A stretch of DNA of 64,000 nt from NCBI RefSeq assembly GCF_024346355.1, contig NZ_JAGQCU010000010.1, positions 1-64,000 on the forward strand, given 5' to 3'. The notes beneath the pieces are model-generated. The model saw only the letters and a list, made by a program, of their open reading frames with translations, was not told the origin of the DNA and ran no database searches. Below, piece by piece: positions 2,648 to 18,586 of the stretch. Positions within the stretch are counted from its first letter, which is position 1. Each line of letters begins with the position of its first letter. Both the position numbers and the translations under genes were made by a program. The DNA comes from Cyanobium sp. ATX 6A2 (lineage in GTDB: Bacteria; Cyanobacteriota; Cyanobacteriia; PCC-6307; Cyanobiaceae).

Positions 2648-3430
2648 CTACAATGCTGGCAGGCCGATGGGTTCGCTATTCCTCTCCCAGATCTGTGGAG
2701 TTCGCTCCAGCAATCCCCAAGCAAGTGATTCTAGGGGTTGCTCGGGGTAAAATAGCTCAACATCCATCCGGTAGCGTTCAAATGCTTTCTGGATCAAATG
2801 GTCGGTGTTGAAGTGGTCGCGCAGATCCATATCCCCAGATCGGCGCACGTTCTTGCTGGGAAGTCTCCCCAGGGCAGGCATGCCCAGCTGGCGCAGGCGT
2901 CGTCGCAGAGCCTTCCAGTGATCGTCCATGACTTCTAGTTTTCCGATAAAAGCAGGTACGACCACGTCATTGCAGCACAAAATCGTACTCTGTGGTAGTA
3001 GGTGTACATCGAGATCTTTATCTTCTGTGCTGCACACTACATCCAGAAATCTCTCAAATGGCATGTGCCGCTCAAGTCCCATGGTCACCATCCCAGAGGG
3101 CAGTATGTCGATCTCCATGATCTTGTTGTTGTAGGCTGACACCAGCCGGTCAAACGGGTTGCGAACAAAGCTGAAGCACATGTGCGTGCTGCGGTAGCCG
3201 AGAGCTTTTTCAGCATCGACCATTGTGGTTTCATCGTGAGTCCCACGGCGCCAGAATACATCGGCTGTTGAGCGCAAGCCCTCTTCTGGTGGTTGATGAA
3301 GCAAGCGGGTGAGCGCTGCCTTCACCGATGAGTTGGCCACCTTGGGTACACGTCCGTAAATTAGTGGCACGTTCTTGAACAGGATGAAGTGTTCGCGCAA
3401 ATTGTGCTTTGAGGTCGTCAAACCCATCAT
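2648..3430 (-). CDS. carbohydrate sulfotransferase (Sulfotransfer_2 type)
   Basis: The 260-residue protein carries both PAPS-binding signatures of the heparan-sulfate-type sulfotransferases: the 5'-phosphosulfate loop GRVPKVANSSVK near residue 27 and the 3'-phosphate motif SFVRNPFDRLVSAY near residue 85. It would transfer sulfate from PAPS to a sugar. Its ATG overlaps the stop of the upstream NeuB fusion by 4 bp (ATGA at 3427-3430), so it is translationally coupled to the sialic-acid-like operon, suggesting that it sulfates the polysaccharide or a precursor. Base composition is intermediate between the AT-rich gene to its left and the GC-rich operon to its right. The acceptor is inferred only. 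Confidence 0.82.
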   Translation of the reverse strand: MMGLTTSKHNLREHFILFKNVPLIYGRVPKVANSSVKAALTRLLHQPPEEGLRSTADVFWRRGTHDETTMVDAEKALGYRSTHMCFSFVRNPFDRLVSAYNNKIMEIDILPSGMVTMGLERHMPFERFLDVVCSTEDKDLDVHLLPQSTILCCNDVVVPAFIGKLEVMDDHWKALRRRLRQLGMPALGRLPSKNVRRSGDMDLRDHFNTDHLIQKAFERYRMDVELFYPEQPLESLAWGLLERTPQIWERNSEPIGLPAL

Positions 3431-5727
3431 GCCGCAACCTTGATGTGCTGCTGCTGGGCTGGCTGGGCCAGCTGGTGGTTCTCCAGCCGCTCGAGCGCCA
3501 GCCAGGCACCTTCTCCGTTGTTCTTGTGGCCCTGCCAGATCTCGGGGATGAACGAGGCCCGCGGCGCCAGGCTGCCCAGCAGCCGGAACACGCTGGCCCA
3601 GTCCACCTCGCCCTCATCGATCTGCAGGCCCTCCCCATCCACGCCCGCGGCATCGGCCAGATGCAAGTGGGCGGTGAAGGGAAGGATGCGCTCCAGAAAC
3701 AGGGAGAAGGGGGCGTGCAGATGGTTGCAGGCGAGCTTGGAATGGGACACATCCAGGCACACCCGCATGGCCTGGCTGCGGCAGAAGGTTTCGATCGTGT
3801 CGGCATCCACGAACAGGTTGTGGAAGCGCTGGCCGCCGAAGTGCCAGGGGAAGGGCGGCATGGTCTGGGGAATGATCTCCACCCCGTCGCAGCGCAGCTC
3901 CGCCAGGCTCTGCACCAGGCGCTCCAGCAGTGCCTCCCGCTCCCGTGGATCGAGGTGGCGCTGACTGGAGAAGCCACCCACGTTGGTCACCAGCAGCACC
4001 GGCTCCGGACAGTCGAAACGGCCGCGCAGGCGGGCTGAAAGGTCGATCACCCGCTGCAGCTCTGCCACCGAGTGGCGGCGGTAGCTGTGATCGCGGCTGC
4101 AGAGATCGAGGGTGTGGTCACCGGCGAACAGCTCCGGGGCATGCACCACTAGGCCCATGGGCACATGGGGGGGGAGCACCGCGTCGATGTCCACCTCCAC
4201 ATCCTTGTAGCTGAGGTGGATCTCCACCAGGTCGAGGTTGCTGGCGCCTGAGAAGTGCTGCAGATCGTGGTAGCGCACCGGCACCCCGAAGCGCTGCGCG
4301 AAGCGGTAGGAACGGGGCTGGGCGGCTGGCTGATCCAGATCCGAGGCGAAGAAGCACTCCCCCTCCCGCTTGGCGTTGCTCAGCACCTTGCCCAGCAGGT
4401 CGTTGAGCCGGTAGGGCTGCAGTCCTTGGCCTGGGCTCTGGATGCGCACCATCTCGCGGGTCACGGGCACACCGGCGGGGATCGGGCAGGCGGCCATCAG
4501 GCTCTTGGCCAGCACCTCCCGGTTCATCAGCTCCCCCTGGCTGAGGCTGCGGGCCGCCTCCGAGCCCAGCGATTCCTCCACGGCCCGGATGCCGGCCACC
4601 ATGGCGCTGAACTCTTCGGGAAGCAGGCTCACCTTGTGGTCGTTGCCCTCCATCGCCCGGTCGAGGGTGATGTGCTTCTCCACCACGGCGGCGCCGAGGG
4701 CCACGGCGGCGATCGGCACCGCAAAGCCCCGTTCGTGGCCCGAGTAGCCCACCGGTGCCTCGGCCAGCTCCGCCAGCCGCTGCAGATAGCGCAGATTCAC
4801 GTCTTTGAACGGGGTGGGATAGGTGGAGTTGCAGTGCAGCAGCACGAAGGCGGCGCCCTGCCTGCGCAGATGGCGGATGCCGGAGCCGATCTCCTGTTCG
4901 GTGGCCATGCCGGTGGAGGCGATCAGCGGTTTGCCGGTGGCGGCAATGGCGCTGAGGAGGTCGTGGTTGGTGAAGTCGGCTGAGGCCACCTTGAACCCCG
5001 CCATGCCCCAGCGATCGAGCTTCTCCAGGCTGGTCTCGTCCCAGGGGGTGCACAGCGGGATCAGGCCCAGTCCAAGGACGTGATCGAAGCATTGGTAGAG
5101 CTCGTCGTCGCTGAGCTGGAAGCGCTCCAGCAGATCCAGCGTGTACTGGGTGCCCAGGTCCGACGCCATGTCGTTGCTGTCGCCGGCGTTGGCGTAGAGG
5201 CGCCCCATGTCGCGCATCTGAAACTTGGCGCAGTCGGCGCCGGCCTCGGCGGCGGCATCGATGAGCCTCAGGGCCAGCTCCAGGCTGCCGTTGTGGTTGT
5301 TGCCGATCTCGGCGATCACGAAGGCGGCAGCGCCATCGCCGATCGCCCGGCCAGCCAGCTGCAGCTGGCGTCGAGCAGCGCGGGCTACCGCCACCACCCG
5401 CCCGTGGTCGTCGAGCAGCGGGATCACCTGGATCTTCTGGGAGAAGAGCTCGGCCAGGTCGCTACCGGCTGTGCCTTCGGGGGCGGCGATGCAGTGGGGG
5501 TTCATGGCGGCGGTCACCGGCCGGCCCAGATCGATCACATCGCTGCCGCCGATCCAGCGCCGGAAGTCACCGTCGCTGAGCACCCCCTGCAGGATGCCCG
5601 CTTCCGACACCACGAAGATCAGCCGGGATTTGTTCGCCGTGATCTTGTTGAGGGCGGAGAGGATCGAGTCTTCGGCGAAGACAACGAACTGGGTGAAATT
5701 GCGCTCGATCTGCACCGCCTGCACCAA
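3427..5727 (-). CDS. CBS / NeuB-type synthase / SAF / TIM-barrel fusion
   Basis: This 766-residue protein joins four parts. Residues 1 to about 115 are a CBS pair (GVLSDGDFRRW is typical). Residues about 125 to 380 are an N-acetylneuraminate synthase domain: FVIAEIGNNHNG, CAKFQMRDM, LIASTGMAT, LLHCNSTYPTP, GYSGHE and EKHITLDR. A SAF-like part follows (AKSLMAACPIPAG...GQGLQPY...LLGK), about 385-455. The last 290 residues are a xylose-isomerase-like TIM barrel (LVEIHLSYKDVEV, VHAPELF, CLDVSHSKLA, HLHLADAAG, FIPEIWQG). It probably condenses PEP with an amino sugar to form a nonulosonic acid; the barrel could be an epimerase or aldolase. The start is TTG at 5727 or GTG at 5724, behind GGCGGAGA. 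Confidence 0.82.
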   Translation of the reverse strand: MVQAVQIERNFTQFVVFAEDSILSALNKITANKSRLIFVVSEAGILQGVLSDGDFRRWIGGSDVIDLGRPVTAAMNPHCIAAPEGTAGSDLAELFSQKIQVIPLLDDHGRVVAVARAARRQLQLAGRAIGDGAAAFVIAEIGNNHNGSLELALRLIDAAAEAGADCAKFQMRDMGRLYANAGDSNDMASDLGTQYTLDLLERFQLSDDELYQCFDHVLGLGLIPLCTPWDETSLEKLDRWGMAGFKVASADFTNHDLLSAIAATGKPLIASTGMATEQEIGSGIRHLRRQGAAFVLLHCNSTYPTPFKDVNLRYLQRLAELAEAPVGYSGHERGFAVPIAAVALGAAVVEKHITLDRAMEGNDHKVSLLPEEFSAMVAGIRAVEESLGSEAARSLSQGELMNREVLAKSLMAACPIPAGVPVTREMVRIQSPGQGLQPYRLNDLLGKVLSNAKREGECFFASDLDQPAAQPRSYRFAQRFGVPVRYHDLQHFSGASNLDLVEIHLSYKDVEVDIDAVLPPHVPMGLVVHAPELFAGDHTLDLCSRDHSYRRHSVAELQRVIDLSARLRGRFDCPEPVLLVTNVGGFSSQRHLDPREREALLERLVQSLAELRCDGVEIIPQTMPPFPWHFGGQRFHNLFVDADTIETFCRSQAMRVCLDVSHSKLACNHLHAPFSLFLERILPFTAHLHLADAAGVDGEGLQIDEGEVDWASVFRLLGSLAPRASFIPEIWQGHKNNGEGAWLALERLENHQLAQPAQQQHIKVAA

Positions 5728-5759: not shown

Positions 5760-7070
5760 CTAGGCCCGAAAGCCGGGGGTCACCAGCAGGGCCAGCCGGC
5801 GCGCGATCGGGTTGGCGAGGCGCATGGCCGCCAGGCGCCGGGCGATGTTGCGGTGATCGGGCCGCTGCAGCTGGGCGATCTCCTGCAGCCGCACGGCCTC
5901 CTCCCAGTCGCGGCGGCGCAGGGCCGCCTCCGCCGCTCGCCGCAATTGGTTGGTGGCCAGCTCGGAGGCATTGATCACGTAGCCCGGATGCTGCAGCTTC
6001 GGCTCGGGCCGCTCGGCCTTACCCGCAACCTGCTCGAGGGCTTCGAGCAGGTTGTCGGGGGAGAAGCGCCGGTGGTATCCCACCCACTCCAGCCAATCGG
6101 GGTCGGGGCCCGGGCCTGCGGTCAGGCTGTCGAGGTCGGCGGCCTGCTCGAAGCGGCGCAGCAGGCCGGAGCCGGCGAAAAAGGGGGTGCCTAGATCCTG
6201 GCGCAGCCCGAAATCGGCCATCACCACGGGCCTGCAGCCCAGGTCGAGGGCGTCGAAGACGGCAGTGGACGACACCGTGGCCAGCAGGCGGCAATCGCGC
6301 AGCAGCTCCGCCAGCGGCAAGTAGCTCAGCTTCAGGTTGACGGGCGGGCTGCCGAGGGTCTCTGTCAGGGTCTGGCTGATGTGGGTGGCCACGGCGTGGA
6401 AGGTGTTTTCGTGCGGTGCCACCCGAGGCTTGATCAGCACCTCCCAGTCGGGAGAGCGGCGGGCCAGAGCCGCCAGGATGCGCACCATCCGGCGGCGCTC
6501 GGCCCCATCGGCCGGCATCACCACCTGCTCGGCGAATACCAGCCGGTTGAGGCGCTCCCCAGCCGGCTCCACCGCCCGCTGGCGGTTCAGGCCTGTAAGC
6601 ACACAGCGTTGGCCGGCGAAGGGCGTATGGCGCAGCATCAGCTCCATCCGGGCCTGATCGCGGGGGCCGTTGAGGCAGATCAGGTCGTAGCCCAGCCGCC
6701 AGGCGATCGCCTCCTCGAAGCGCTCCAGCACCACCCCGTTGAAGCCGCAGAACAGGGCGCGTGGTGGCAGGCCCAGCTGGCGGCGGCTGGCGAGGTACAC
6801 GTTGCGGAATTCCGCCAGCTTGCTGCCGGTGAGATACACCCCGATGGCATCGAACTGATCCAGGCGGCGATCACGCAGCAGTTGCTTCAGCGACTGGCGC
6901 CACAGTGGACCAATCCGCTCCAGCGCCTCCAGCACCGCGGCGGGGGTGCCCTCCCGAGGCACCGCGTTCACGGTGACGGCCACCCTGCCCGCCTCGGCGC
7001 CTTGGGCCAGGGCCTGAGCGGCCAGCAGCTGGCTATCGCTGTCGGCCACCAGCAGCAGCTTCAGGGTCAT
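5760..7070 (-). CDS. putative glycosyltransferase, DUF6716-like (copy 3)
   Basis: The 436-residue product starts MTLKLLLVADSDSQLL, a DxDS-type N-terminus found in DUF6716 putative glycosyltransferases. A YDLICLNGP element lies near the middle. A GT-B-like C-terminal half carries VSSTAVFDALDLG, VVMADFGLRQDLG and FFAGSGLLRRF. An alanine/arginine-rich tail follows. It is one of three adjacent paralogues (the others are at 7067-8125 and 8122-9411), and its ATG overlaps the previous stop by 4 bp. It likely adds a nonulosonic acid or another sugar to a growing capsule chain in the cytoplasm. Donor and linkage cannot be told from sequence. Confidence 0.68.
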   Translation of the reverse strand: MTLKLLLVADSDSQLLAAQALAQGAEAGRVAVTVNAVPREGTPAAVLEALERIGPLWRQSLKQLLRDRRLDQFDAIGVYLTGSKLAEFRNVYLASRRQLGLPPRALFCGFNGVVLERFEEAIAWRLGYDLICLNGPRDQARMELMLRHTPFAGQRCVLTGLNRQRAVEPAGERLNRLVFAEQVVMPADGAERRRMVRILAALARRSPDWEVLIKPRVAPHENTFHAVATHISQTLTETLGSPPVNLKLSYLPLAELLRDCRLLATVSSTAVFDALDLGCRPVVMADFGLRQDLGTPFFAGSGLLRRFEQAADLDSLTAGPGPDPDWLEWVGYHRRFSPDNLLEALEQVAGKAERPEPKLQHPGYVINASELATNQLRRAAEAALRRRDWEEAVRLQEIAQLQRPDHRNIARRLAAMRLANPIARRLALLVTPGFRA

Positions 7071-8125
7071 CGGGCCAGGGCCTCCAACTGGCGCTTCAGC
7101 CGCCAGGGCCCATCGGCGATCGCCCAGCCCAGATCCGCCAGCCAGCCGGGATTGGCCGGGGGGGCCGCGAGCAGGTGGTCGAGCGGCTGACAGTCCGCCA
7201 GCCGGCGCATCAGTCCGGAGCCGAAGAACAGGGGTCCGTCGAACTCGGTGCGGATGCCGTAGTCGCCCAGCACCGCCGTGGGCTTGCCCCAGACCATGGC
7301 GCTGAGCAGCCAGGGAGAGCTGATTCCCAGGCAGGCCCAGGCCTGCATCAGGCTCAAGGGCAGGTCCTCGTGATCACCCAGCTGCAAATTGGCGGGCCGG
7401 CTCTCATCCTGCCGATGATGCCAGGCGAGGGTCGTCTCCTCCCACAGCTCCGGATCGCTGGGCAGCGAATAGTCGGGCTGCAGGCGCACGGTCCAGCCTG
7501 GGGAGGCCAGGGCCAGATCCTGCAGGCGTCGATAGAGCAGAGCCTTCTCCCGAGCACTGGCTGGGAGGTCCCGCTGCTCCAGCACCAGCACCTGCGGCTG
7601 CTCACTCAGGGCCAGGCCGATCGGTTCGCTGGGCACTGTCCACAGGCCGATGGCGACGTTGGCCTGATCGGCGTGGGTCGTGCCACGGATCAGCCATCCC
7701 AGCTCCTCCACCTGGGCCGACCCGTGCAGGCAGATCAGGTCGTAGCCCAGTCGTGGCAGCAGGTCGGCGCTGAGGGCGTCGCCCACCAGGGGCAGCAGCG
7801 GTCCGCTGAACAGGGGCCGCGGCGCGCGGCCGCGCAGGCGGGCCGCCTGGCGGTGGGCAGCCAGGAACGGTTGCAGAGTGTCGGCTTCGAGGAACACGCC
7901 CGCCCCGTCCAGGTGATCCATCAGCTCGCTCACCGCGGCGGCGAGGGGCTCCAGCACCAGGGCACGAGCCGGGGGATCGGCAGGCCTGGGGAAGTGGGGA
8001 AACCGGGACGGCGGGCCCGGCGCTGTGATCAGGGTCACCTCGACCCCGGCCTGCCTCAGCTGCCTGGCCAGACGCAGGCAGGCCCGCAGGGCCGCCGCCG
8101 AGTCGCTGATCAGGGCCAGTTTCAT
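7067..8125 (-). CDS. putative glycosyltransferase, DUF6716-like (copy 2)
   Basis: The start is set at the ATG of MKLALISDSAAALRACL (8125) rather than an upstream Met at 8155, because this N-terminus matches the paralogues and the ATG overlaps the upstream stop by 4 bp. The 352-residue protein shows the family features: YDLICLHGS, a SPWLLSAMVWGKP helix in place of the SSTA motif, VLGDYGIRTEFDGPLFFGSGLMRRL. The replacement of the SSTAxxDA block by SPWLLSA may mean altered donor binding. It sits between two related genes and is coupled to both. Confidence 0.68.
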   Translation of the reverse strand: MKLALISDSAAALRACLRLARQLRQAGVEVTLITAPGPPSRFPHFPRPADPPARALVLEPLAAAVSELMDHLDGAGVFLEADTLQPFLAAHRQAARLRGRAPRPLFSGPLLPLVGDALSADLLPRLGYDLICLHGSAQVEELGWLIRGTTHADQANVAIGLWTVPSEPIGLALSEQPQVLVLEQRDLPASAREKALLYRRLQDLALASPGWTVRLQPDYSLPSDPELWEETTLAWHHRQDESRPANLQLGDHEDLPLSLMQAWACLGISSPWLLSAMVWGKPTAVLGDYGIRTEFDGPLFFGSGLMRRLADCQPLDHLLAAPPANPGWLADLGWAIADGPWRLKRQLEALAR

Positions 8126-9411
8126 CGGCCCTTGAGCAGCCGTTCCATGCCCCACAGGCCCACCAGCTGCTGGCGGATCCGGCGCAGCAGATCCCGGCCG
8201 CGATGGCTGGCGCCCTGGCGGGAGCTGGCCCCGGCCGAACTCAGCATCCGCCGGCCCCCCCGGGCCAGGGCATAGCCCTGCCAGGCCTCACTGCCCCAGC
8301 CCGGGGGGCCCGGCCGGGCCTGGCTTGTGGGCAATGGTGGCTGCTCGAGCCTGGCGGCCAGGGTTGTCACGAAGCGGGCGGCTCCCTCGCGGCAGAGGCC
8401 GTGGCTGTGCAGCCAGTCGGGGTCGTGGCGGAGGGTGAAGGGGTCGCGCACGATGGCGTCGAAGCTGGCCAGGGCCCCGGATCCGAGGAAGTAGTGGTTG
8501 CCAAGGGTCTCGTTCACCCCCAGGTCGGCCACGATGCGGGTGCTCACCCCCAGGGCCATGGCCTCCATGGCAGCCGTGGACGAGACGGTGATGGCACAGG
8601 CACAGCGCTGCAGCAGGGTCAGGCTGGGCTTGTGGCTGATGCGCAGGTTGCTGAGCTTGCGGCTCATCTTGGCCACCCGGCGGGTCATTTCCCCGTGGTG
8701 CCGGTGCAGGGTGGCCTCCACGCTGGAGGTCCGGGGCTTGAAGATCACCGGGTGGTCCGGCCAGGCCCGGGCCAGATCCGCCAGCCGGCGGCAGAGATAC
8801 CGGCGCTGGATCGGGTTGTCGGGCACCGAGGGCTGCTCGAAGAACACGATCGCTCCCTGCTCCGGCGCTTGCGGCCGGGGTTGCAGCGACCAGAGGATCG
8901 GCAGGCCCGTCAACAGGGCATTGCCGCCATCGATGCCGAGGTCGTGGCATCCGCGCCGATAGAGCTCAAGGTCCACCTCGGCGTTCAGGCAGAGCAGATC
9001 CACCCCCGAGCGGTCCATCATCCCCTCGAGCTGGTGGCGGAAGAGGATGCCGGGGTAGGCGCTCACCAGCACCGGCCGGCGCGGCTCCCCCGCCCACTCC
9101 GCCTGCAGCAGAAGCAGGGTCTCGCGGGTCCGGCGTCCGTCGAGGCCCAGCACCAGGCCATCGAGCCCGGCCAGCTCGCCCCGCAAACTGCGCAGCTCAC
9201 CCCAGAGGTGCTGGCGCACCTCGGTGCGGGGGCCGATGCGGCGGATTTCCAGCACCTGGCGGCGGGACAGCTTGCGGCCCGGCAGCTCCATCAGGTGCAG
9301 GGTGGTCTGGGCCCCTTCGCGCCGCGCCACGTGCAGAAGGTTCATGGCCGTCTTGCCGAACGAATCGAAGCAGGCCAGGGCTGCGATGTGTTGTCCCTGC
9401 AGGGCGCTCAA
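8122..9411 (-). CDS. putative glycosyltransferase, DUF6716-like (copy 1)
   Basis: The open frame extends to 9474, but the best start is TTG at 9411: it overlaps the stop of the neuA-like gene as TTGA, exactly like the ATGA couplings elsewhere in this operon, and gives an N-terminus (SALQGQHIAALACFDSFGKT) in register with the paralogues. The 429-residue product has VDLLCLNAE, IFKPRTSSVEAT, ITVSSTAAMEAMALG, IVADLGVNETLG and YFLGSGALASF. It likely acts in cytoplasmic capsule chain assembly. The start is an inference; the family match is good. Confidence 0.66.
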   Translation of the reverse strand: MSALQGQHIAALACFDSFGKTAMNLLHVARREGAQTTLHLMELPGRKLSRRQVLEIRRIGPRTEVRQHLWGELRSLRGELAGLDGLVLGLDGRRTRETLLLLQAEWAGEPRRPVLVSAYPGILFRHQLEGMMDRSGVDLLCLNAEVDLELYRRGCHDLGIDGGNALLTGLPILWSLQPRPQAPEQGAIVFFEQPSVPDNPIQRRYLCRRLADLARAWPDHPVIFKPRTSSVEATLHRHHGEMTRRVAKMSRKLSNLRISHKPSLTLLQRCACAITVSSTAAMEAMALGVSTRIVADLGVNETLGNHYFLGSGALASFDAIVRDPFTLRHDPDWLHSHGLCREGAARFVTTLAARLEQPPLPTSQARPGPPGWGSEAWQGYALARGGRRMLSSAGASSRQGASHRGRDLLRRIRQQLVGLWGMERLLKGR

Positions 9412-10160
9412 GGGCTGATCTCCAGGCTGGATGAGCCTTCTGCCTGGTCGAGCAGGGGAGCCAGCTGCCGGCACAGGGCCAAGTCTGCTGGCGTATCGAT
9501 CTCCACCGCCGGGGCGTCGATCGGCACCGGCAGGGTGGGCGCCACGAAGCGGGTGCCCTGCGCCAGGAAGGGCAGCGTGCGGATGGCGTAGATCGCCCCG
9601 GTTTCCAGATAGGTGGGAGCGAGATCCTGGCGGCGTGCCCTGGGTCGGCTCGGATCGTGGTTCACCCCCACGCCATGGCCCCCGCCGTCGAGGCCCCAGA
9701 GAAAGCCGTGCCAGGGCGTCACGCTGAAGGCCATGGCGGCCTCACTGGCCTGCAGGCGCATCACCACGGCATCGATGTGCTCCGGCCGGGTGAAGGGTGA
9801 GGTGCACTGCAGAAACGCAAACAGCTCCGGCAACGGCCCTCGCTCCGCCAGGGTCTGCAAGGCGTGCAGCAGGGCCTGTTCCGAAGAGGCCCCATCCCCG
9901 GCCAGATCGGTGGGCCGCCGCATCCAGCCGGCCCCTTCCCGTTCGGCCAGGGCTCCGATGGCCGCGTCGTCACTGCTCACCCACACGGGGCCGAGGCTGG
10001 CGGCCGCCCCGGCGGCCCGCACGCTCCGGGCCAGCAGGGGCACGTTGCCGACCTGGCGCAGATTCTTCCCCGGCACCCCCTTTGAGCCACCCCGGGCCGG
10101 GATCAAGGCCAGGGGTGGCAGGGTGGGATCAATGGTGAAACCGGATCCGGGGGCCCTCAT
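9408..10160 (-). CDS. CMP-nonulosonate cytidylyltransferase (NeuA-like)
   Basis: The enzyme would activate a nonulosonic acid with CTP, supplying the CMP-sugar to the transferases downstream. The nucleotide-binding loop LIPARGGSKGVPGKNLR near residue 18 is of NeuA/PseF type rather than the KdsB type. Other landmarks are VWVSSDDAAIGALAE, PELFAFLQCTSPF and YLETGAIYAIR, followed by AVEIDTPADL near the end. The start at 10160 gives 250 residues, usual for the family, and overlaps the stop of the small upstream gene (ATGA at 10157-10160). A longer open frame to 10577 is a composition artefact. The actual sugar (Neu5Ac, legionaminic acid or another) is not determinable. Confidence 0.82.
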   Translation of the reverse strand: MRAPGSGFTIDPTLPPLALIPARGGSKGVPGKNLRQVGNVPLLARSVRAAGAAASLGPVWVSSDDAAIGALAEREGAGWMRRPTDLAGDGASSEQALLHALQTLAERGPLPELFAFLQCTSPFTRPEHIDAVVMRLQASEAAMAFSVTPWHGFLWGLDGGGHGVGVNHDPSRPRARRQDLAPTYLETGAIYAIRTLPFLAQGTRFVAPTLPVPIDAPAVEIDTPADLALCRQLAPLLDQAEGSSSLEISP

Positions 10161-10387
10161 GGCTGCTCCGGCACGGCTGGCCGCAGCCGACCATTGGCCC
10201 CGAGCGGGTACCAGCCCAGGGAATTCTTGGGCTGGGCTGCCGGCTGCACCACCACAGGGTCGGTGTTGGCGCCGGTGGCGCGGAGACGCTGACGCTCCAC
10301 GGCCAGCACCACCCGCCGCACCCGACCCACCGGCATGCCGATCTCCTCGGAGACCGCCGCGCAGAGCTGGTCGATGGAGCTGTCCAT
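10157..10387 (-). CDS. small protein of unknown function, first gene of the NulO operon
   Basis: The 76-residue product begins MDSSIDQLCAAVSEEIG and continues MPVGRVRRVVLAVERQRL, an amphipathic helix-turn-helix-like run, then a loop with NSLGWYPLGANGRLRP. The start at 10387 is chosen over upstream in-frame codons because the residues before it look non-coding. Its stop overlaps the neuA start by 4 bp, which argues that it is a real translated gene. I do not recognise a family; a small DNA-binding or adaptor protein is possible but unproven. The divergent intergenic region to kpsC (10388-10560) probably holds both promoters. Confidence 0.5.
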   Translation of the reverse strand: MDSSIDQLCAAVSEEIGMPVGRVRRVVLAVERQRLRATGANTDPVVVQPAAQPKNSLGWYPLGANGRLRPAVPEQP

Positions 10388-10560
10388 GAAGCCGTCTGTC
10401 CGCCCTGGGGAGCATCCCCGGCAGCGCTGGGGCTGAACGTAGCAGCCACGCCGCGACCGGTAGCCTGAGCCGCGCTCCCGCCAGGCGCCCTCCTGCAGGC
10501 ATCTCACCGCCCTTGGCCTCTCCTCTCCCAGCGGCCCGCCTGGGGCTGCCGGCTGCCGGC

Positions 10561-12522
10561 ATGCTGCGCCACCGCACCCTGGCCGCGCTGCTGGCCGATC
10601 ACCGGCTGGTGACGGGGGCGGCCCGCTGCGCCGGCGCCGAGCTCGATGCCCTGCTGGCCTGGGGACGCAAGCCCAGCGCCCGCCTGGCCGAGCGGCTGGC
10701 GCGCCGGCGCCGGTTGGCCCTCTGGCGCTGTGAGGATGCCTTTCTGCGCTCCCTCGAGCTGGGTCCCGACAGTGCTCCGCTGGGCCTGGTGCTTGATGAC
10801 GCCGGCATCTACTACGACGCCGGGCGCCCCTGCCGCCTGGAGCGCCTGATCGCCGCTCCCCACACGCAGCCGCAGCTGCAGCGGGCTGAGGCCATCCGCC
10901 GGCTCTGGTGCGAGCAGCGGGTGAGCAAGTACAACGGCAGTCGCGAGGCGCCGGCGCCGGCGGAGCCGTTCGTGCTGGTGGTCGATCAGACCGCGGGAGA
11001 CCTCTCGATCGGCCTCGGCGGGGCCACGGCGGCCAGCTTCGAGACCATGCTCGCCACCGCGCTGAGCGACCATCCCGGCCGGCTGGTGGTCGTCAAGACC
11101 CACCCGGATGTGGTGCGCGGCCGCAAGCGCGGCCATTTCCAGGCCCGGCAGCTGCAGCACCCCCTGATCCGGCTCGAGGCCAGTGGCGGCCATCCCGCGG
11201 CCCTGCTGGAGCGGGCCGCGGCGGTGTACGTCGTCACCTCCCAGCTGGGCTTCGAGGCCCTGCTCTGGGAGCGGCCGGTGCACTGCTTTGGCATGCCCTT
11301 CTATGCCGGCTGGGGGCTCACCCGGGATCGCGCTCCCGTGCCCGAGCGCCGCCAGCCGCGTCAGCTGGGTGATCTGATCCACGCGGCCCTGGTGGACTAC
11401 GCCGTCTACGTCGACCCCCACCGCCACCAGCGCTGTGCGCTGGAGGAGCTGATCACGGCCATCGGTCTGCAGCGGAGGCTGCGGGGCCAGATGCCCGAGC
11501 GCATTGAGGCCTTCGGCTTCACCCCCTGGAAACAGCGGGTGCTGCGACGCTTCCTGGCCGGCAGCCGGCTGCGCTTCAAGTTCCAGTGGCAGGGTGCGGG
11601 CCACCGCGCCCAGGCGCTGGCGGTGTGGGGGCGGCGGGCCCGTCCGCAGCTGCTGGAGGCGGCCGGCCGCCGCGCGCTGCCGCTGCTGCATGCCGAGGAT
11701 GGATTTCTGCGCTCGGTGGGGCTGGGGGCCGACCTCATCGACCCGATTTCCTGGGTGATCGACCGGCGCGGCATCTACTACGACGCCAGTGCCCCCAGTG
11801 ACCTGGAGCACCGGCTGGCCACCGGCAACTGGGATGGACCCCAGCTGCTGCGGGCGCGGCGGTTGCGACGGCGGCTGGTGGAGGAGGCGATCACCAAATA
11901 CAACCTGCGGTCGGCCAGCTGGCGGCGACCTGCCGGGATCCGACGGCTGGTGCTGGTGGTGGGCCAGGTGGAAGCGGATGCCTCGATCCGGCTGGGCGCT
12001 CCCGGCGTGCGCACCAACCTCGGCCTGCTGCAGGCGGTGCGGGCCGCCGAGCCCTCGGCCTACCTGCTCTACAAGCCCCATCCCGATGTGGTGGCGGGCC
12101 TGTGCAGCCCGGGATCCAGGGAGGCAACGGCCCAGGATTGGTGTGACGAAGTGGTGCTGGATGCCTCGATCCAGCAACTGTTCACCCAGGTCGATGCCCT
12201 GCATGTGATCACGTCCATCGCCGGCTTCGAGGCCCTGCTGCGGGAGCTGGAGGTGCACACCTGGGGGCTTCCCTTCTACGCCGGCTGGGGCCTGAGCCAC
12301 GACCGCCTGAGCTGCGACCGCCGCGGCCGCCGCCTCAGCCTGGATGCCCTGGTGCATGCCGCCCTGATCGACTACCCGCGCTACGTGAGCCGCCACAGCG
12401 GTCTGTTCATCGAGCCGGAGCAGGCGATCGAGGAGCTGCTGGCCTGGCGCTCGGCGCCGCCCATGCCCCTGAGCTTGCGCCAGCGCATCTTCCGGCACTG
12501 GGGTCGGCTGCGGCGGCGTTGA
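10561..12522 (+). CDS. kpsC: capsule beta-Kdo transferase, KpsC-like
   Basis: KpsC builds the poly-Kdo linker that joins capsule chains to a lyso-phospholipid at the inner membrane. The 653-residue product has the expected internal duplication. Half one has LALWRCEDAFLRS, GIYYDA, RVSKYN, VVKTHPDVVRG and YAGWGLTRDR. Half two repeats LLHAEDGFLRS, GIYYDAS, ITKYNL, LYKPHPDVVAG and YAGWGLSHDR. E. coli KpsC is about 675 residues, so it is full length. The start is placed at ATG 10561; a TTG at 10513 would add 16 residues. The downstream KpsS fusion follows after 55 bp, presumably cotranscribed. Whether the organism really supplies Kdo is unknown, as no CMP-Kdo genes are present here. Confidence 0.85.
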   Translation: MLRHRTLAALLADHRLVTGAARCAGAELDALLAWGRKPSARLAERLARRRRLALWRCEDAFLRSLELGPDSAPLGLVLDDAGIYYDAGRPCRLERLIAAPHTQPQLQRAEAIRRLWCEQRVSKYNGSREAPAPAEPFVLVVDQTAGDLSIGLGGATAASFETMLATALSDHPGRLVVVKTHPDVVRGRKRGHFQARQLQHPLIRLEASGGHPAALLERAAAVYVVTSQLGFEALLWERPVHCFGMPFYAGWGLTRDRAPVPERRQPRQLGDLIHAALVDYAVYVDPHRHQRCALEELITAIGLQRRLRGQMPERIEAFGFTPWKQRVLRRFLAGSRLRFKFQWQGAGHRAQALAVWGRRARPQLLEAAGRRALPLLHAEDGFLRSVGLGADLIDPISWVIDRRGIYYDASAPSDLEHRLATGNWDGPQLLRARRLRRRLVEEAITKYNLRSASWRRPAGIRRLVLVVGQVEADASIRLGAPGVRTNLGLLQAVRAAEPSAYLLYKPHPDVVAGLCSPGSREATAQDWCDEVVLDASIQQLFTQVDALHVITSIAGFEALLRELEVHTWGLPFYAGWGLSHDRLSCDRRGRRLSLDALVHAALIDYPRYVSRHSGLFIEPEQAIEELLAWRSAPPMPLSLRQRIFRHWGRLRRR

Positions 12523-12577: not shown

Positions 12578-14620
12578 TTGACCACAGAACGGGCCCCCGC
12601 TCCGGCTCCGGTGCAGTTGGTTCAGGTGCAGATCGACGGGCCGGTTCTGCTGCTGATGGGGCCGATCGGGCTGTTCTTCGCCCGCTTCTGCCGCTACCTG
12701 CGCGGCTGTGGCATTCCTGTCACCAAGGTGAGCTTTCCCCTGCATGAGTTCGGCTTCCCTCGGGAGGTGCGCGTGCCCTTCGATGGCCCGATGGAGGACT
12801 GGCGACCGTTTCTGCGGCAGCAGATCAGCGAGCGCGGAATCCGCCACATCTTCATGTATGGCGACTTCATCATTCCCCACCGCATCGCCATCGAGGAGGC
12901 GCGCAGTGCCGGCATCGAGGCCTGGGTGTTCGAGCTGGGTTACATCCGTCCCAACTACGTGACCCTGGAGCGCGAGCGGGTGAATGCCCGCTCCAACCTC
13001 AACCAGCCCGTGGCGTTCTACCGCCAGCTGCCGCCGGTGGATGCCCTCCCCCAGGGCCGGCTGGATCCGGGCTGGCGCTGGCGCAAGCTGTGGAAGGCCC
13101 CCACCTTCTTCCAGCACGCCCTCACCCGCTATCCGATCATCGAGGGCGAGCACAAGCTGCAACCCTCACCGCGCTTTCTCTGGTGTCAGTTGCGCGGCAG
13201 CTGGCGCTACTGGCTCTATCGCTGGCAGGAACGGGGCCTCAAGCAGCGCCTGCTGGAGCACCTCTCTTTTTTCCTGGTGGTGTTGCAGGTGTCGAGCGAC
13301 TCCCAGGTGCAACTGGGGTCGCCCTACCGGGGAATGCACGACTTCATCGAAGCCGTGATCGTGTCCTTCGCCCGCCATGCCCATGCTTCCGATCACCTGG
13401 CCTTCAAGCATCACCCCCGTGACCGGGGCTACAACCATTACGGCCGGCTGATCCAGCTGCTGGCCCGTCGCCATGGGCTCGAGGGGCGGGTGCACTACTT
13501 CCACGACGGCGCCCTGAGTCGATTCCTGCGCACCTGCCGCGGTGTGGTGACCGTGAACAGCACCGTGGGTCTGCAGGCCCTGTACCACGCTGTGCCCACC
13601 AAGGTCATGGGCCAGACCTTCTACAACCTTCCCGGACTCACCGATCAGCAGCCCCTCGATCAGTTCTGGCGCGAGCCCCACACCAGCGATCGGCCGCTCT
13701 TCTACCGCTTCTACGACCACCTGGTGACCACCACCCAGGTGAACGGCAATTTCGACGGCGACTTCCCCTTCCGCAGCACCTTCCCGATCGGACCGGAGGC
13801 CCGCCGGCTGTTGCCGCGGCCGCGGCTGCCCGCCCCCGGCCAACCGGCCGGCTCCAATCCCCTGCTGCTGCCCCTGCGGGTGTTGTCCCGCCTGTTCTGG
13901 GGGGTTTCCTACTTCGTGGTCTACGGCCTGCAGCTGCTGGCTCTGGGCCTGGGCCGGCGCCGGCTGGCCGCCCGGTTGCTCGTGGCGACCGCTCAGGTGG
14001 GCCTGCGGGCCCTGGGCATCAGCGTGGTGGTGGATGACAGCCACCCCAGCGAACCGGAGGGGATCCCCCTGGTGCACATCTGGAACCACGAGAACCCCGC
14101 CGATGTGCTGGTGGTGCAGGGTGTGCTCCGGCTGCCCAGCATCACCACGGCCAGCCTGCACCTGAGCCGGATCATGCCCTGGTTCTCCGCCTCCGCGGCC
14201 AATGCCGGCCATGGCCTGATGGACCATCGCGACGGCCGCTCACGTACCTCGGCCCTCTACCGGGCCTCGCGTACCCTGGCGGAGCGCGGTGAGGTGATGC
14301 TGGCTCCCAACGGCTCCCTGCTGACCCCCATCCGTGAGCGGGTCTCCGCCAGCGCCCTGCTGCTGGCCCGCAAACATGGCGCCCTGATCGTGCCCTGGAC
14401 GTTCAGCTACCACGGCCTGAGCACCTCCGGGCGGGACCTCTACCGGCCCCTGGGCCTCCTGCTCGCCAGGCTCAGCGCCCCCCTGGCCACCATCCACTGC
14501 CGCCGCGGGCGGTCCCGGGATCTGGCGCTGGCGGAGAACCATGGCGATCGCGAGGCCTTCGTGCAGGCCGTTCAGGCCCACTACGCTGCCGCTGCGCTCA
14601 GGCCGCCAGCACCACGCTGA
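12578..14620 (+). CDS. KpsS-like Kdo transferase fused to a PlsC-type acyltransferase
   Basis: Residues about 20-410 match KpsS capsule export/linker proteins: VLLLMGPIGLFFARF, IFMYGDFIIPHR, VFELGYIRPNYVTLE, LQVSSDSQVQ, LAFKHHPRDRGYNHYG and VVTVNSTVGLQAL. After a proline-rich linker comes a hydrophobic segment (about 430-465) and an acyltransferase domain with the catalytic H-x4-D in WNHENPADV (His504, Asp509) and a PNGS block at 577-580, where most homologues have PEGT. KpsS normally adds the first Kdo to lyso-phosphatidylglycerol; the added domain could make, re-acylate or modify that lipid. KpsS is usually single-domain (about 390 residues), so the fusion is the notable point. The start is TTG at 12578, uncertain. 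Its 3' end overlaps the convergent fabF-like gene by 23 bp. Confidence 0.82.
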   Translation: MTTERAPAPAPVQLVQVQIDGPVLLLMGPIGLFFARFCRYLRGCGIPVTKVSFPLHEFGFPREVRVPFDGPMEDWRPFLRQQISERGIRHIFMYGDFIIPHRIAIEEARSAGIEAWVFELGYIRPNYVTLERERVNARSNLNQPVAFYRQLPPVDALPQGRLDPGWRWRKLWKAPTFFQHALTRYPIIEGEHKLQPSPRFLWCQLRGSWRYWLYRWQERGLKQRLLEHLSFFLVVLQVSSDSQVQLGSPYRGMHDFIEAVIVSFARHAHASDHLAFKHHPRDRGYNHYGRLIQLLARRHGLEGRVHYFHDGALSRFLRTCRGVVTVNSTVGLQALYHAVPTKVMGQTFYNLPGLTDQQPLDQFWREPHTSDRPLFYRFYDHLVTTTQVNGNFDGDFPFRSTFPIGPEARRLLPRPRLPAPGQPAGSNPLLLPLRVLSRLFWGVSYFVVYGLQLLALGLGRRRLAARLLVATAQVGLRALGISVVVDDSHPSEPEGIPLVHIWNHENPADVLVVQGVLRLPSITTASLHLSRIMPWFSASAANAGHGLMDHRDGRSRTSALYRASRTLAERGEVMLAPNGSLLTPIRERVSASALLLARKHGALIVPWTFSYHGLSTSGRDLYRPLGLLLARLSAPLATIHCRRGRSRDLALAENHGDREAFVQAVQAHYAAAALRPPAPR

Positions 14621-15857
14621 TGTTGTGGCCGCCGAAGCCGAAGGCGTTCTTGAGGGCGTAGCGCTCCCCGGAGTCGGCCCCGCCCGCCAGGCTGAGGGGA
14701 CCGTCCTGCACCACCGCCAGCTCGATGGCGGGATCGAGGGGGTCGGCATTCACAGAGCGGGGCACCAGGCCCTGACGCAGGGCCTGGAGGGCCAGGATCG
14801 TCTCCACGGCACCGGCGGCCCCGAGCAGGTGGCCAAGCTGGCCCTTGGGGGCGGTGACCGGCAGGTCCCGGGCGCGGGAGCCCAGGGTGCGCGCCAGGGC
14901 CCGGGCTTCCGCCAGATCGCCCACTGGTGTGCCGGTGGCATGGGCCTGCACGAAGCTGAGCGCATCCACGCCCAGGTCGGCCCGCCTGAGGGCGTCGGCC
15001 ATGGCGGCACTGGCCCGCAGCCCCTCCGGTTCCGGCGCCACGATGTGGTGGCCGTCGCTGCTGCTGCCGCAGGCCAGCAGCCAGCCCAGGGGCCTGGGCC
15101 CTCCGGCCTTCAGGTCGCCGTGCCGCTGCAGCACCAGCGCCCCCGCCCCCTCCGAGAGCACGAAGCCGTCGCGGTCGCGGCCGTAGGGCCGGGATGCCTG
15201 ATCCGGGTGTTGATTGCGACAGGAGAGGGCCCGCATGGCCGCAAAGCCCACCAGCCCCAGCCGATTCACGGGCGCTTCGCTGCCGCCGGCGATCACCACG
15301 TCGGCGCGGTCGTCGTTGAGCAGCATCTGGGCCAGCAGCAGCGCTTCGGCGCCGGAGGCGCAGGCCGACACCGGGGTATGGGCGCCGCCGTGGAGGCCCA
15401 GATCAATGGCGATCTGCCCGGCGGCGGCATTGGGGATCAGCATCGGCACGGTGAGGGGATTCACCCGGTTGGGCCCGGCCTCCAGCAGGTTGCAGTGCTG
15501 CCGCTCCAGGGTGGCCAGGCCGCCGATGCCGGTGCCGATCACCACCGCCACCCTGGCCGGCTCAACGCCCGCCAGGTGGGGCCGGGCCTGGCTCCAGGCC
15601 TGGCGGGCCGCCAGCAGGCCCAACTGGGAGCAACGGTCCAGGCGCCGGCGTTGCAGGGATTCGAGCTCGCCGGCGATATCCACGCTGACGCAGCCGGCGA
15701 TGCGGGCGGGCAGATCGCTGGCCCAGGGCTGGTGGAGGGCCGTGATACCGCTGCGGCCTTCGAGGGTGGCGGTCCAGGTGCCGTCGGCATCGCCCGCCAG
15801 GGGTGTGATCGCCCCCCAGCCGGTCACGGCGATCCGCTCAGTTGCTCGGGCCATCAT
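14598..15857 (-). CDS. beta-ketoacyl-ACP synthase (FabF-like)
   Basis: The 419-residue enzyme elongates acyl-ACP with malonyl-ACP. It has the thiolase-fold catalytic triad: Cys in TPVSACASG (near residue 165), His in QAHATGTPVGD, and His in KGQLGHLLGAAGAVE. The C-terminus ALKNAFGFGGHNISV is typical of KAS II. The start is set at the MMARATERIAVTGWG codons (15857 or 15854), which overlaps the acyl carrier protein gene by about 20 bp. This is probably a dedicated copy beside a carrier protein and acyltransferase genes rather than the housekeeping fabF, but that is inferred from context only. Confidence 0.85.
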   Translation of the reverse strand: MMARATERIAVTGWGAITPLAGDADGTWTATLEGRSGITALHQPWASDLPARIAGCVSVDIAGELESLQRRRLDRCSQLGLLAARQAWSQARPHLAGVEPARVAVVIGTGIGGLATLERQHCNLLEAGPNRVNPLTVPMLIPNAAAGQIAIDLGLHGGAHTPVSACASGAEALLLAQMLLNDDRADVVIAGGSEAPVNRLGLVGFAAMRALSCRNQHPDQASRPYGRDRDGFVLSEGAGALVLQRHGDLKAGGPRPLGWLLACGSSSDGHHIVAPEPEGLRASAAMADALRRADLGVDALSFVQAHATGTPVGDLAEARALARTLGSRARDLPVTAPKGQLGHLLGAAGAVETILALQALRQGLVPRSVNADPLDPAIELAVVQDGPLSLAGGADSGERYALKNAFGFGGHNISVVLAA

Positions 15858-16149
15858 CGCGCTCCAGCGATTCCAGGTGTCGCTGGACATCGCCGACGGT
15901 GCGGAAGCGCAGCAGGTCCTCTTCGCGGATCTTGATGCCGAGGCACTCGTCGGCCTCGATCAGGATTTCGTAGAAGCCCAGGGAATCGATGCCGATGTCC
16001 TCGATCAGGCGGGCATCAGGGGTGATCTGCTCGGGATCGGCACCGGAGATGCGCTGCAGGATCTCGATCAGGCGGCCTTGCACGTTCTTCCCGCCAGGGG
16101 TGGGGGAAGCGGCTCCGCTGCTGTCGTTGTCGGGGCCTGCCTGCATCAA
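15838..16149 (-). CDS. acyl carrier protein
   Basis: The 103-residue product has a flexible Gly/Ser-rich start and then an ACP fold with the phosphopantetheine serine in IEDIGIDSLGFYEIL (about residue 54). Normal housekeeping ACPs are about 80 residues with DSLDTVE after the Ser, so the LGFYEI variant suggests a specialised ACP. It lies directly upstream of, and overlaps, the ketosynthase, and is 54 bp from the GNAT gene upstream, consistent with a three-gene acyl-building unit. Confidence 0.85.
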   Translation of the reverse strand: MMQAGPDNDSSGAASPTPGGKNVQGRLIEILQRISGADPEQITPDARLIEDIGIDSLGFYEILIEADECLGIKIREEDLLRFRTVGDVQRHLESLERDDGPSN

Positions 16150-16203: not shown

Positions 16204-17172
16204 TCATCCCCCCCGATACCAGCTGAAGGTCCGGTAGATCGGGAGATGGTCGAAGGCGATGAAGTGCTCCAGCCTGCGGGCTGGAATCCGCCGCAGATCG
16301 GCGGCCATCAGGATCTCGGTGATCTGGTTGAAGTCCCGGGCCAGAGAGAGGTTGCGAACCCGGGCCTCCATCAGATTGATGTACTGGCGCAGCAGAACCG
16401 GCAGCCGGAAGCTGGGATCGAGCCGGTTGCGGATGTCCTGTTCCAGTTCCTGGATGGTGGCCACTGGCGCGGGCCGGGAGTCCGGTTGGAGGTGGTCGAG
16501 CGGATGCCGGGGTTGGGGATGGGGCGAAGAGGGATCCAGGAAGGGAGGGCGCAGCAGCGTGCCCAGAAACTCCCGGTTCACCACATCGTCATAGGCGAAG
16601 TGGTTGTAGGACACCAGGCCGTGGATGGAGCTGTAGCCCGCGCCCACGGCCACCTGTAGGCCACCGCGGAACAGCAGCATGAGCGTGTGGGGCTGGCGCT
16701 GAAAGCGGGGAGCCAGCGCCACGCGGCCGATTTCCAGATGGTTGCCACGGCTCGCCAGATCGGCCTTGATGCCGGGATACACATGCTCCAGATAGGACTG
16801 CCCTCCCCCCGGTAGGGAGGCGGAGCCAGGATGGGAGTGGCGATCTTCTGCGCGGGCGGGCACGAACTGCAGGCGCGCTGAGCCTGCCAGCTCGCCGCTG
16901 CTGGCCTCCACCATCAGGAAGTGGTCGTAATGGGGGTCCCTGCTGTCCAGGTCTCTGCTGTTGCCGGAGCCTGAGAGCTGCTGGCGGTAGGTGAGCTCAC
17001 GCAGCTCTCCCACGGGTTCGCTGTAGGGCCCAAAGCGCTGTCCGGGCAGCAGGTAAAGATCCAGCCCCTGGGAGCACAGCAAGCGGAAGGGAGCCAGGTC
17101 CGCTTGGATCCGATCAGGGGGAAAAGCGATCGCGGCGGAGAGATTCAACGGATTTCCGTCGGTCGTCTTCAC
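16204..17172 (-). CDS. OlsB/hemolysin-like GNAT acyltransferase
   Basis: The protein resembles the PF13444 branch of the GNAT fold, which includes ornithine N-acyltransferase OlsB and acyl-homoserine-lactone-like enzymes that take acyl groups from ACP. Visible landmarks are LDLYLLPGQRFGPYS, HYDHFLMVEASSGELAGSAR, LEIGRVALAPRFQ and a YSSIHGLVSYNHF segment. The start is GTG at 17172 (VKTTDGNPLNL), since the longer frame to 17601 runs antisense to the divergent exporter gene. It gives 322 residues. With the adjacent ACP and ketosynthase it could form an N-acyl amino-acid or aminolipid; the substrate is unknown. Confidence 0.65.
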   Translation of the reverse strand: MKTTDGNPLNLSAAIAFPPDRIQADLAPFRLLCSQGLDLYLLPGQRFGPYSEPVGELRELTYRQQLSGSGNSRDLDSRDPHYDHFLMVEASSGELAGSARLQFVPARAEDRHSHPGSASLPGGGQSYLEHVYPGIKADLASRGNHLEIGRVALAPRFQRQPHTLMLLFRGGLQVAVGAGYSSIHGLVSYNHFAYDDVVNREFLGTLLRPPFLDPSSPHPQPRHPLDHLQPDSRPAPVATIQELEQDIRNRLDPSFRLPVLLRQYINLMEARVRNLSLARDFNQITEILMAADLRRIPARRLEHFIAFDHLPIYRTFSWYRGG

Positions 17173-17266
17173 GGTGTGGTGTGGATGCGGGAAGATTAGC
17201 CCGGCCTTCCGCCGCGCCTCCTGGCGCCATTGCGGCCGGTCCTGGTTCTTTGTGCTGACAGGCCCA

Positions 17267-18586
17267 GTGTCATCTGCCCGACTCAATACTGCAGGTCGCA
17301 GGGCCGGCCGCGCCCTTCGCCAGCGGGCCGTCTCTTTGCTGCTCACCCCGGTGCCGCTGCTGGCGATGCAGACTGGCCTGTCCGCCACAGCCCCGCCCCG
17401 CTCTCTGGCCCAGGCGGGCATGGAACGGGAGGCCTTCCCGCTTCCAGAGGTCGATGGCCGTGAAGGCCAGCCCGCCCTGCGGGATCGGGCACCTTCAAGT
17501 AACCGCATGCCGGGGAGCAGGGTTCCTGCGCCACTGCTGCACGGTCGGTCGGCGGAGGCCGTGCCGGCTCCCGCCATCGCCACCGATCCGGGCATCGGCA
17601 CTTTCCGCTACCGCCTCGGCCCGGGAGATCGTCTGCGCATGTCGGTGTTCATGGTGGAGGGCTACGCCGCCGATGTGGAGGTTCTCGCCGACGGTACGGT
17701 CAACCTGCCGCGCCTTGGCTCCGTTCCCGTCTGGGGGCTGACGCTCGACGAGGCGCGTCAGCGCATCACTGAGGGCTACGACCGCTTTCTGCGCAACCCC
17801 CTCGTGTACCTCGACCTGCTGGCCCCCCGCCCGGTGCGTGTGACTCTGCTGGGGGAGGTGCAGAAGCCCGGCTTCTACACCCTCACCCAGGGTGGGCAGG
17901 CGGCCACCCTGGCGGCGGCCGGACCGGCCGCCAGCGGCACCACGATCGCCACGGCCGGCTGGCCCACCCTGGTGGATGCGGTGCAACGGGCGGGCGGCAT
18001 CACGGCGGTGGCGGATCTGGCCGATGTGGTCCTCACCCGCCCCAGCCCCGTGCCCGGGGGGGGGCGTTCGGTGGAGTATCGCTTTGACTATCAGCAATTG
18101 CTGATGAACAACCGCCGCACCGTCAACCCCCTCCTCTACGACGGGGACATGGTGCGGGTGGCCAGGGCGGAGGTGCCCAAGCCCAGCGACGTGCTGATCC
18201 GCACCGCCGCCTCCAACTTCGCCCCCGACACCATCGGCGTGACCGTGGTGGGCGAGGTGCGCGTGCCCGGCCTGAAGCAGGTGCGCTCCAACAGCCCCCT
18301 GGCCGCGGCGGTGATCGCCGCCGGCGACGTGGATCCGAGCCGGGCCAATGCCCGCGAGATCCGCCTGATCCGGGTGCAGCCCACCGGCGAGGTGGAGGTG
18401 CGCACCATTGCCTTCGACCCCTCCGCTGCCCTCGATTCACCGGCCAACCCCTCGTTGCACAACGGCGACATGGTGGTGGTGCCCCGCAATGGCTGGACCC
18501 GCTTCAACGACTTTCTCCTCCAGGCCGTCACGCCCTTCGGGCCTGTGCTGAACGCCGCCTCGCTCTACCGCATCTTTGATAACTGA
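17267..18586 (+). CDS. Wza/KpsD-like polysaccharide export protein
   Basis: This would be the periplasmic/outer-membrane channel for capsule export. After a signal-like segment (RQRAVSLLLTPVPLLAMQ) and a proline/serine-rich stretch comes a Poly_export domain (YRLGPGDRLRMSVF near residue 115, NLPRLGSVPVWGLTLDEA), then two SLBB domains (VTLLGEVQKPGFYTL and VTVVGEVRVPGLKQV). The start is set at GTG 17267 so the signal segment is complete; GTG at 17252 is an alternative. It is divergent from the GNAT gene, whose start is 94 bp away. It is the only transport component of the capsule system in this window; no KpsMTE-type ABC transporter is seen. Confidence 0.82.
   Translation: MSSARLNTAGRRAGRALRQRAVSLLLTPVPLLAMQTGLSATAPPRSLAQAGMEREAFPLPEVDGREGQPALRDRAPSSNRMPGSRVPAPLLHGRSAEAVPAPAIATDPGIGTFRYRLGPGDRLRMSVFMVEGYAADVEVLADGTVNLPRLGSVPVWGLTLDEARQRITEGYDRFLRNPLVYLDLLAPRPVRVTLLGEVQKPGFYTLTQGGQAATLAAAGPAASGTTIATAGWPTLVDAVQRAGGITAVADLADVVLTRPSPVPGGGRSVEYRFDYQQLLMNNRRTVNPLLYDGDMVRVARAEVPKPSDVLIRTAASNFAPDTIGVTVVGEVRVPGLKQVRSNSPLAAAVIAAGDVDPSRANAREIRLIRVQPTGEVEVRTIAFDPSAALDSPANPSLHNGDMVVVPRNGWTRFNDFLLQAVTPFGPVLNAASLYRIFDN

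Follow-up and report, generated by a model that had tools for sequence, protein, structure and literature searches.

The window, the whole stretch of 64,000 nucleotides of Cyanobium sp. ATX 6A2 that was analysed, carries a capsule locus with a gene for a two-domain protein, in which an N-terminal KpsS β-Kdo transferase is followed by a C-terminal acyltransferase of the LPLAT/PlsC group (Table 1). The reading frame opens with TTG, with alternative GTG or TTG starts at 12611-12626, and runs without internal stop codons to a stop that ends at 14620. Typical KpsS is a single-domain protein, unlike this product of 680 residues with its second domain. The plasmid-borne KpsS of E. coli has 415 residues, and its end falls approximately where the extra domain of the fusion starts. 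The original prediction had placed a KpsS-like and a PlsC-type domain in one protein, and both families (PF05159 and PF01553) were indeed matched within the single ORF. A frameshift at the junction, or an assembly artefact, was considered and rejected, because the frame is uninterrupted and the same fusion occurs intact in other genomes, with acyltransferase halves that are 35-95% identical. The main texts of the open-access literature yielded no account of the fusion or of its neighbouring lipid genes.

Table 1. Features of the capsule locus and their positions in the window
Feature	Position	Strand	Basis or remark
NeuB nonulosonate synthase with SAF and xylose-isomerase-like domains	3427..5727	-	Domain matches
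Three tandem adjacent DUF6716 putative glycosyltransferases, diverged	5760..9474	-	Pfam
CMP-sugar synthetase, PseF/KdsB-like, C-terminal part of ORF	9408..10577	-	Profile matches
KpsC, upstream of the fusion; two Capsule_synth modules (motifs QTAGD, QVEAD)	10513..12522	+	Pfam
KpsS::PlsC fusion	12578..14620	+	680 aa, one ORF
KpsS (Capsule_synth) domain, best-matched stretch	12848..13753	+	Pfam; 38% identity to E. coli plasmid KpsS
QVSSD (Q237-D241), QXXXD catalytic-nucleophile motif	13286..13300	+	Alignment
Predicted helix pair (430-457, 461-478) preceding the acyltransferase core	13865..14011	+	AlphaFold2 model; resembles the PlsC two-helix membrane motif
LPLAT/PlsC domain core (PF01553)	14054..14401	+	Pfam, profile, fold
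H504-x4-D509 catalytic motif (HENPAD)	14087..14104	+	Sequence, alignment
PNGSL block, counterpart of PlsC PEGTR; Leu at the phosphate-binding Arg position	14306..14320	+	Alignment
FabF-like ketosynthase, Cys-His-His triad complete	14598..15890	-	NF005589, 407 bits (cut-off 387)
Dedicated divergent ACP, DSL phosphopantetheine site	15838..16149	-	Profile match, comparison with the housekeeping ACP
OlsB/GlsB/OlsF-C-like N-acyltransferase (GNAT, PF13444)	16204..17172	-	Approximate start: GTG 17172 or TTG 17148
Wza/KpsD-type polysaccharide export protein	17174..18586	+	Profile matches; true start uncertain

In the KpsS half, Pfam matched Capsule_synth (PF05159) at residues 91-392 (E 8.6e-58), and the NCBIfam KpsS model NF050054 matched residues 22-392 with 275 bits, under its equivalog cut-off of 600 bits. 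The 38% identity to the plasmid-borne E. coli KpsS extends across 88% of the domain. The Asp of the QXXXD motif is the catalytic nucleophile of β-Kdo transferases (PMC10148158), and here Q237 and D241 are invariant among the aligned relatives and also line up with proteobacterial KpsS. The AlphaFold2 model of the fusion was good for the acyltransferase half and poor for the KpsS half, for which a fold search returned generic Rossmann and GT-B matches only. Structure prediction of both domains, proposed as a check on the original prediction, was therefore informative for the C-terminal part alone.

That part was best matched in fold by Thermotoga PlsC, 5KYM (Z 14.6, rmsd 4.6, 230 residues, aligned from residue 426), and PatA also resembles it (Z 10). 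5KYM was likewise the sole match when a profile of the C-terminal domains was compared with the PDB (E 1.1e-5). The domain search suggested for this region gave PF01553 at residues 493-608 (E 6.6e-6; score 26.4 bits, cut-off 23), whereas the NCBIfam model TIGR00530 matched weakly, with about 21 of 103 bits, and its cut-off was not reached. All 15 aligned C-terminal domains match PF01553. HENPAD lies at residues 504-509 exactly as predicted, and the PEGT block does read PNGS. In the 15 aligned domains the block is P[NS]GSL, with P[NS]GS invariant, in place of the PEGTR with phosphate-binding Arg of PlsC. Arg159 in the FPEGTR block of PlsC is believed to bind the phosphate group of lysophosphatidic acid, the acceptor, and the aminolipid enzyme SalA has Val at this position in a family block FP[E/S]G[T/V] (PMC8319176). 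The altered block is family-wide and Leu occupies the position of Arg159, which supports the earlier proposal that the acceptor may differ from that of PlsC. This evidence is suggestive and not conclusive, because the PEGTR block is variable in further LPLAT paralogues of this genome too. Outside the window (G000:C7:9525-10702), a WaaA-type Kdo transferase stands beside a small acyltransferase-family protein with a TPDGPRG block.

The ketosynthase and fusion genes lie tail to tail with an overlap of 23 bp. A housekeeping ketosynthase and ACP pair is encoded elsewhere in the same genome; recent duplication of the housekeeping FabF and ACP was rejected as the origin of the copies at the locus, since identity is 40% for the ketosynthase and 27% over 56 residues for the ACP. 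The GNAT is the only PF13444 match of the genome (42.1 bits, cut-off 22.4). All 13 aligned GNATs matched the OlsF and GlsB models, and the protein in the window corresponds to the C-terminal, OlsB-like part of OlsF, although it scores far under the equivalog cut-offs of OlsF (42 of 620) and GlsB. Its AlphaFold model has a pLDDT of 88, and the nearest folds are LuxI-type AHL synthases and FeeM (Z 13-13.7), in a common fold for which many further structures reach Z 12. FeeM is an N-acyl amino acid synthase. By sequence, the GNAT alignment had no match in the PDB. In tblastn searches with the GNAT, relatives included bifunctional OlsF-type proteins; among the plasmid-borne ones were proteins annotated as lysophospholipid acyltransferases, of which one with 601 residues was matched in its C-terminal half, as expected for the layout of OlsF. 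In published aminolipid synthesis a PF13444 N-acyltransferase acts first and an O-acyltransferase follows, and PF01553 is found in the OlsA/PlsC group (PMC11631085). Both members of this two-step pair, PF13444 and PF01553, are present at the locus.

The lipid genes accompany the fusion closely. GNAT, ACP and ketosynthase stand beside it in 14 of the 15 wide loci from the numbered genomes, and the remaining locus (L039) has the GNAT without ACP or ketosynthase. The order KpsC, KpsS::PlsC and ketosynthase-ACP-GNAT is the same in the named contigs wherever these are long enough; the named contigs and numbered genomes include several of the same genomes, and the two sets are not independent. A GNAT alignment search of 151 genomes found the gene in 17 of 18 fusion genomes and in none of the 133 others. 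The eighteenth fusion genome is fragmented and gave a partial match. The Fisher p value of this co-occurrence (1.5e-21) is inflated by relatedness and linkage.

A survey of homologous fusions in cyanobacteria, also proposed earlier, recovered these 18 genomes among the 151 of the family with the fusion protein as query, most of them over both halves. The exceptions are G074 and G103, in which the match is cut by contig ends, and G032, whose second half is degenerate. When 386 genomes from across the phylum were sampled, 11 matched at E 1e-20, all within the same family. A scan of 84,980 species, one genome each, with a motif of the acyltransferase half found 16 loci, which belong to Cyanobium, Synechococcus, Vulcanococcus or an unnamed cyanobacterial bin; the pattern was taken from that half, and differently built KpsS-acyltransferase fusions in other phyla may therefore escape it. 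These results fit a fusion that is confined to picocyanobacteria, as judged by sequence and motif searches. The fusion and the GNAT are patchily distributed even inside genera (for example, only a single g45 genome among several, and likewise a single g10 genome, has both), and the block has therefore been gained or lost together.

The capsule locus also encodes a sulfotransferase. Together with NeuB, the PseF-like CMP-sugar synthetase and the DUF6716 trio, its presence suggests that the polymer may contain nonulosonate and is possibly sulfated. The NeuB gene product has 766 residues, in which CBS-like, NeuB, SAF and xylose-isomerase-like TIM-barrel domains are joined; in G112 (L106:18713-19885), SAF and TIM barrel occur in a 390-residue ORF without a NeuB match, and this ORF may extend past the stretch. 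The DUF6716 trio accompanies the capsule locus in many relatives. No CMP-synthetase or DUF6716 gene was detected in the analysed flanks of L038-L040, while KpsC, the fusion and the GNAT are retained. The lipid genes thus persist with KpsC and KpsS, and the cassette therefore follows the anchor and not a given polymer. L038 has KpsM/KpsT-like genes near KpsC, with other glycosyltransferases adjoining; KpsM and KpsT were not among the flank ORFs examined for G140 and G112. Outside the window, G000:C7:29172-48118 contains six carrier-protein domains in 19 kb, on ORFs of about 600 to 1300 residues, which is a probable NRPS/PKS-type cluster.

KdsA was found in all 18 fusion genomes and in 43 of the 133 others, and KdsA, KdsC and KdsB are clustered together on contig C45 of the Cyanobium genome itself. 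Therefore, CMP-Kdo should be available in the cell, and the KpsS domain has both a KpsC neighbour and a supply of its predicted donor. WaaA is encoded in the same genome, so that the capsule is probably not the only destination of Kdo. Kdo-free cells in which a nonulosonate serves as the donor of KpsS are not favoured, since the genome has KdsA, KdsB, KdsC and WaaA.

The acyltransferase half of the fusion looks exchangeable between strains. In Cyanobium Prado107 (L055) and CH-040 (L059), the KpsS domains are 97% identical and the acyltransferase domains 62%. DNA identity between the two loci is about 82-99% in KpsC and KpsS, 63-76% in the acyltransferase half, and back to about 85-95% across most of the ketosynthase, ACP and GNAT genes. 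The sharp drop is limited to the acyltransferase half (L055:9950-10840 against the same offsets in L059). This looks like replacement of a swappable module by recombination, with rapid divergence as a less likely alternative. H-x4-D has been lost from the fused domain of G032/L040, which is dead, and GNAT, ACP and ketosynthase are kept; no second acyltransferase copy was found within 20 kb in G032. In L066, the fused half is dead as well (neither H-x4-D nor PxGS), and an intact stand-alone copy follows. Both copies are intact in G089. A second PlsC-like gene adjoins the fusion at L066:8238-9693 and at L033:8280-9821. The dead halves in G032/L040 and L066 indicate that catalysis by the fused domain is not always needed.

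The domains, motifs, fold, synteny, co-occurrence and the complete Kdo pathway of the genome are direct observations, and on these we base a proposal for the function of the fusion. The neighbouring ketosynthase and ACP may furnish a particular acyl-ACP, from which the OlsB-type GNAT, judged by its family and fold, would N-acylate a small head group that carries a hydroxyl, for example an amino acid. The C-terminal LPLAT domain would then O-acylate this lyso-lipid through H-x4-D, as OlsA and SalA do. The KpsS domain would transfer the first β-Kdo from CMP-Kdo onto the head group, with a covalent adduct on D241; this is the mechanism of the family, whose QXXXD motif is present. KpsC would then lengthen the Kdo linker, on which a nonulosonate-type polymer would be built. 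Fusing O-acylation to Kdo transfer would keep a rare lipid apart from the bulk membrane lipids. To accept Kdo, the head group would have to offer a free hydroxyl, and serine is one speculative choice. An amino-acid-based lipid is proposed because of the family to which the GNAT belongs and because it is paired with a PF01553 enzyme, and the cassette lipid, the proposed starting point for the KpsS/KpsC capsule, is plausibly an N-acyl or acyloxyacyl aminolipid.

The chance that the fusion links the closing acylation step in the making of a dedicated anchor lipid for the capsule with the opening sugar transfer seems to us close to even. The locus is explained most economically by a gene set for the starting lipid of the capsule, in which a single polypeptide performs both the last O-acylation and the initial transfer of Kdo. 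The wider reading, in which capsules of picocyanobacteria are built on a lipid that contains an amino acid (N-acyl or acyloxyacyl) and comes from the dedicated ACP, ketosynthase and GNAT, with one bifunctional finishing and Kdo-priming enzyme whose acyltransferase half strains exchange as a module, is offered tentatively, at somewhat less than an even chance. Several findings run counter to such an anchor lipid: the low scores of the GNAT against the OlsF and GlsB equivalog models, the dead fused domains in G032/L040 and L066, and the action of known KpsS on (lyso)PG. In addition, the co-occurrence is in part that of one linked block inherited together in related genomes.

The main rival is that the fused domain re-acylates lyso-PG or Kdo-lyso-PG to a diacyl PG anchor, and that GNAT, ACP and ketosynthase serve another purpose. 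E. coli KpsS works on (lyso)PG (PMC7694667; PMC10148158), anchors with one or two acyl chains have been reported, and the nearest solved relative of the domain is a lysophosphatidate acyltransferase. However, Leu at the phosphate-binding Arg position and P[NS]GS for PEGT in the aligned domains do not fit this acceptor well, and the tight linkage of the three lipid genes would be left unexplained, so that we consider re-acylation unlikely, if a serious competitor. An anchor lipid that is built separately is better supported than simple lyso-PG re-acylation, because the fusion has its own ACP, ketosynthase and OlsB-type GNAT beside it in nearly every carrier. The original prediction of a role for the fused domain on the capsule lipid is supported in its general form, and the neighbouring genes point away from simple re-acylation of lyso-PG.

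Acylation of sugars is another explanation: the GNAT would acylate a nonulosonate or an amino sugar, and Kdo would be the substrate of the LPLAT domain, much as a glycolipid mannose is that of PatA. It would account for the resemblance of the C-terminal domain to PatA (Z 10) and for NeuB and the PseF-like CMP synthetase at the locus, but the cassette is kept in L038-L040 although no CMP-synthetase or DUF6716 gene was detected there, and the model matches of the GNAT are to lipid N-acyltransferases. We regard it as improbable. It is also conceivable, though in our judgement very improbable, that the cassette produces a free envelope aminolipid, that the fusion only positions KpsS at the membrane and that the anchor is ordinary PG. 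The union of KpsS with a catalytically dead domain in two lineages is in keeping with this, and OlsB/OlsA-type pairs normally yield free membrane lipids (PMC11631085), whereas the GNAT was found only together with KpsS::PlsC, and never without it, in the 151 genomes sampled.

If the anchor-lipid proposal is true, the capsule of some picocyanobacteria, which are abundant photosynthetic bacteria, hangs from a custom-made lipid and not from phosphatidylglycerol as in E. coli. With a priming glycosyltransferase naturally fused to an acyltransferase, beside genes of the aminolipid type, the existence of a second anchor that is Kdo-primed but not PG can be tested directly. Marine Synechococcus have kps-like clusters resembling the E. 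coli K1 and group 2-3 kps loci, and the published passages available on them make no mention of a fusion or a lipid cassette (PMC7522525, PMC10119275). An association of the kps-like clusters of these photosynthetic bacteria with niche has been published (PMC10119275).

In nearly all Gram-negative capsules of the ABC-transporter type, the KpsS/KpsC glycolipid on (lyso)PG is reported to be conserved (PMC10148158). Like KpsS, the retaining β-Kdo transferase that starts the poly-Kdo linker of these capsules, the fusion has PF05159, QXXXD, a KpsC neighbour and the Kdo pathway; it differs by about 260 extra C-terminal residues that form the acyltransferase, by a score far under the NCBIfam equivalog cut-off and possibly in its acceptor. 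With PlsC (Thermotoga PlsC, 5KYM) it shares PF01553, H-x4-D, the fold (Z 14.6) and a two-helix element, but P[NS]GSL replaces PEGTR, the partner is a glycosyltransferase and the domain turns over rapidly. A PF13444 N-acyltransferase beside a PF01553 O-acyltransferase is found in OlsB/OlsA, GlsB/GlsA, OlsF and SalA systems, and SalA has an altered phosphate-site residue, as does the acyltransferase half of the fusion. Unlike in OlsB/OlsA-type systems, the O-acyltransferase here is fused to KpsS and lies in a capsule locus with its own ACP and ketosynthase. A precedent for an ABC-type capsule on a dedicated non-PG lipid is the Vi antigen of Salmonella Typhi, with VexE and diacyl-HexNAc (PMC12220298). 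The Vi system is without KpsS and KpsC, whereas the locus in the window has both, and its lipid genes come from other families.
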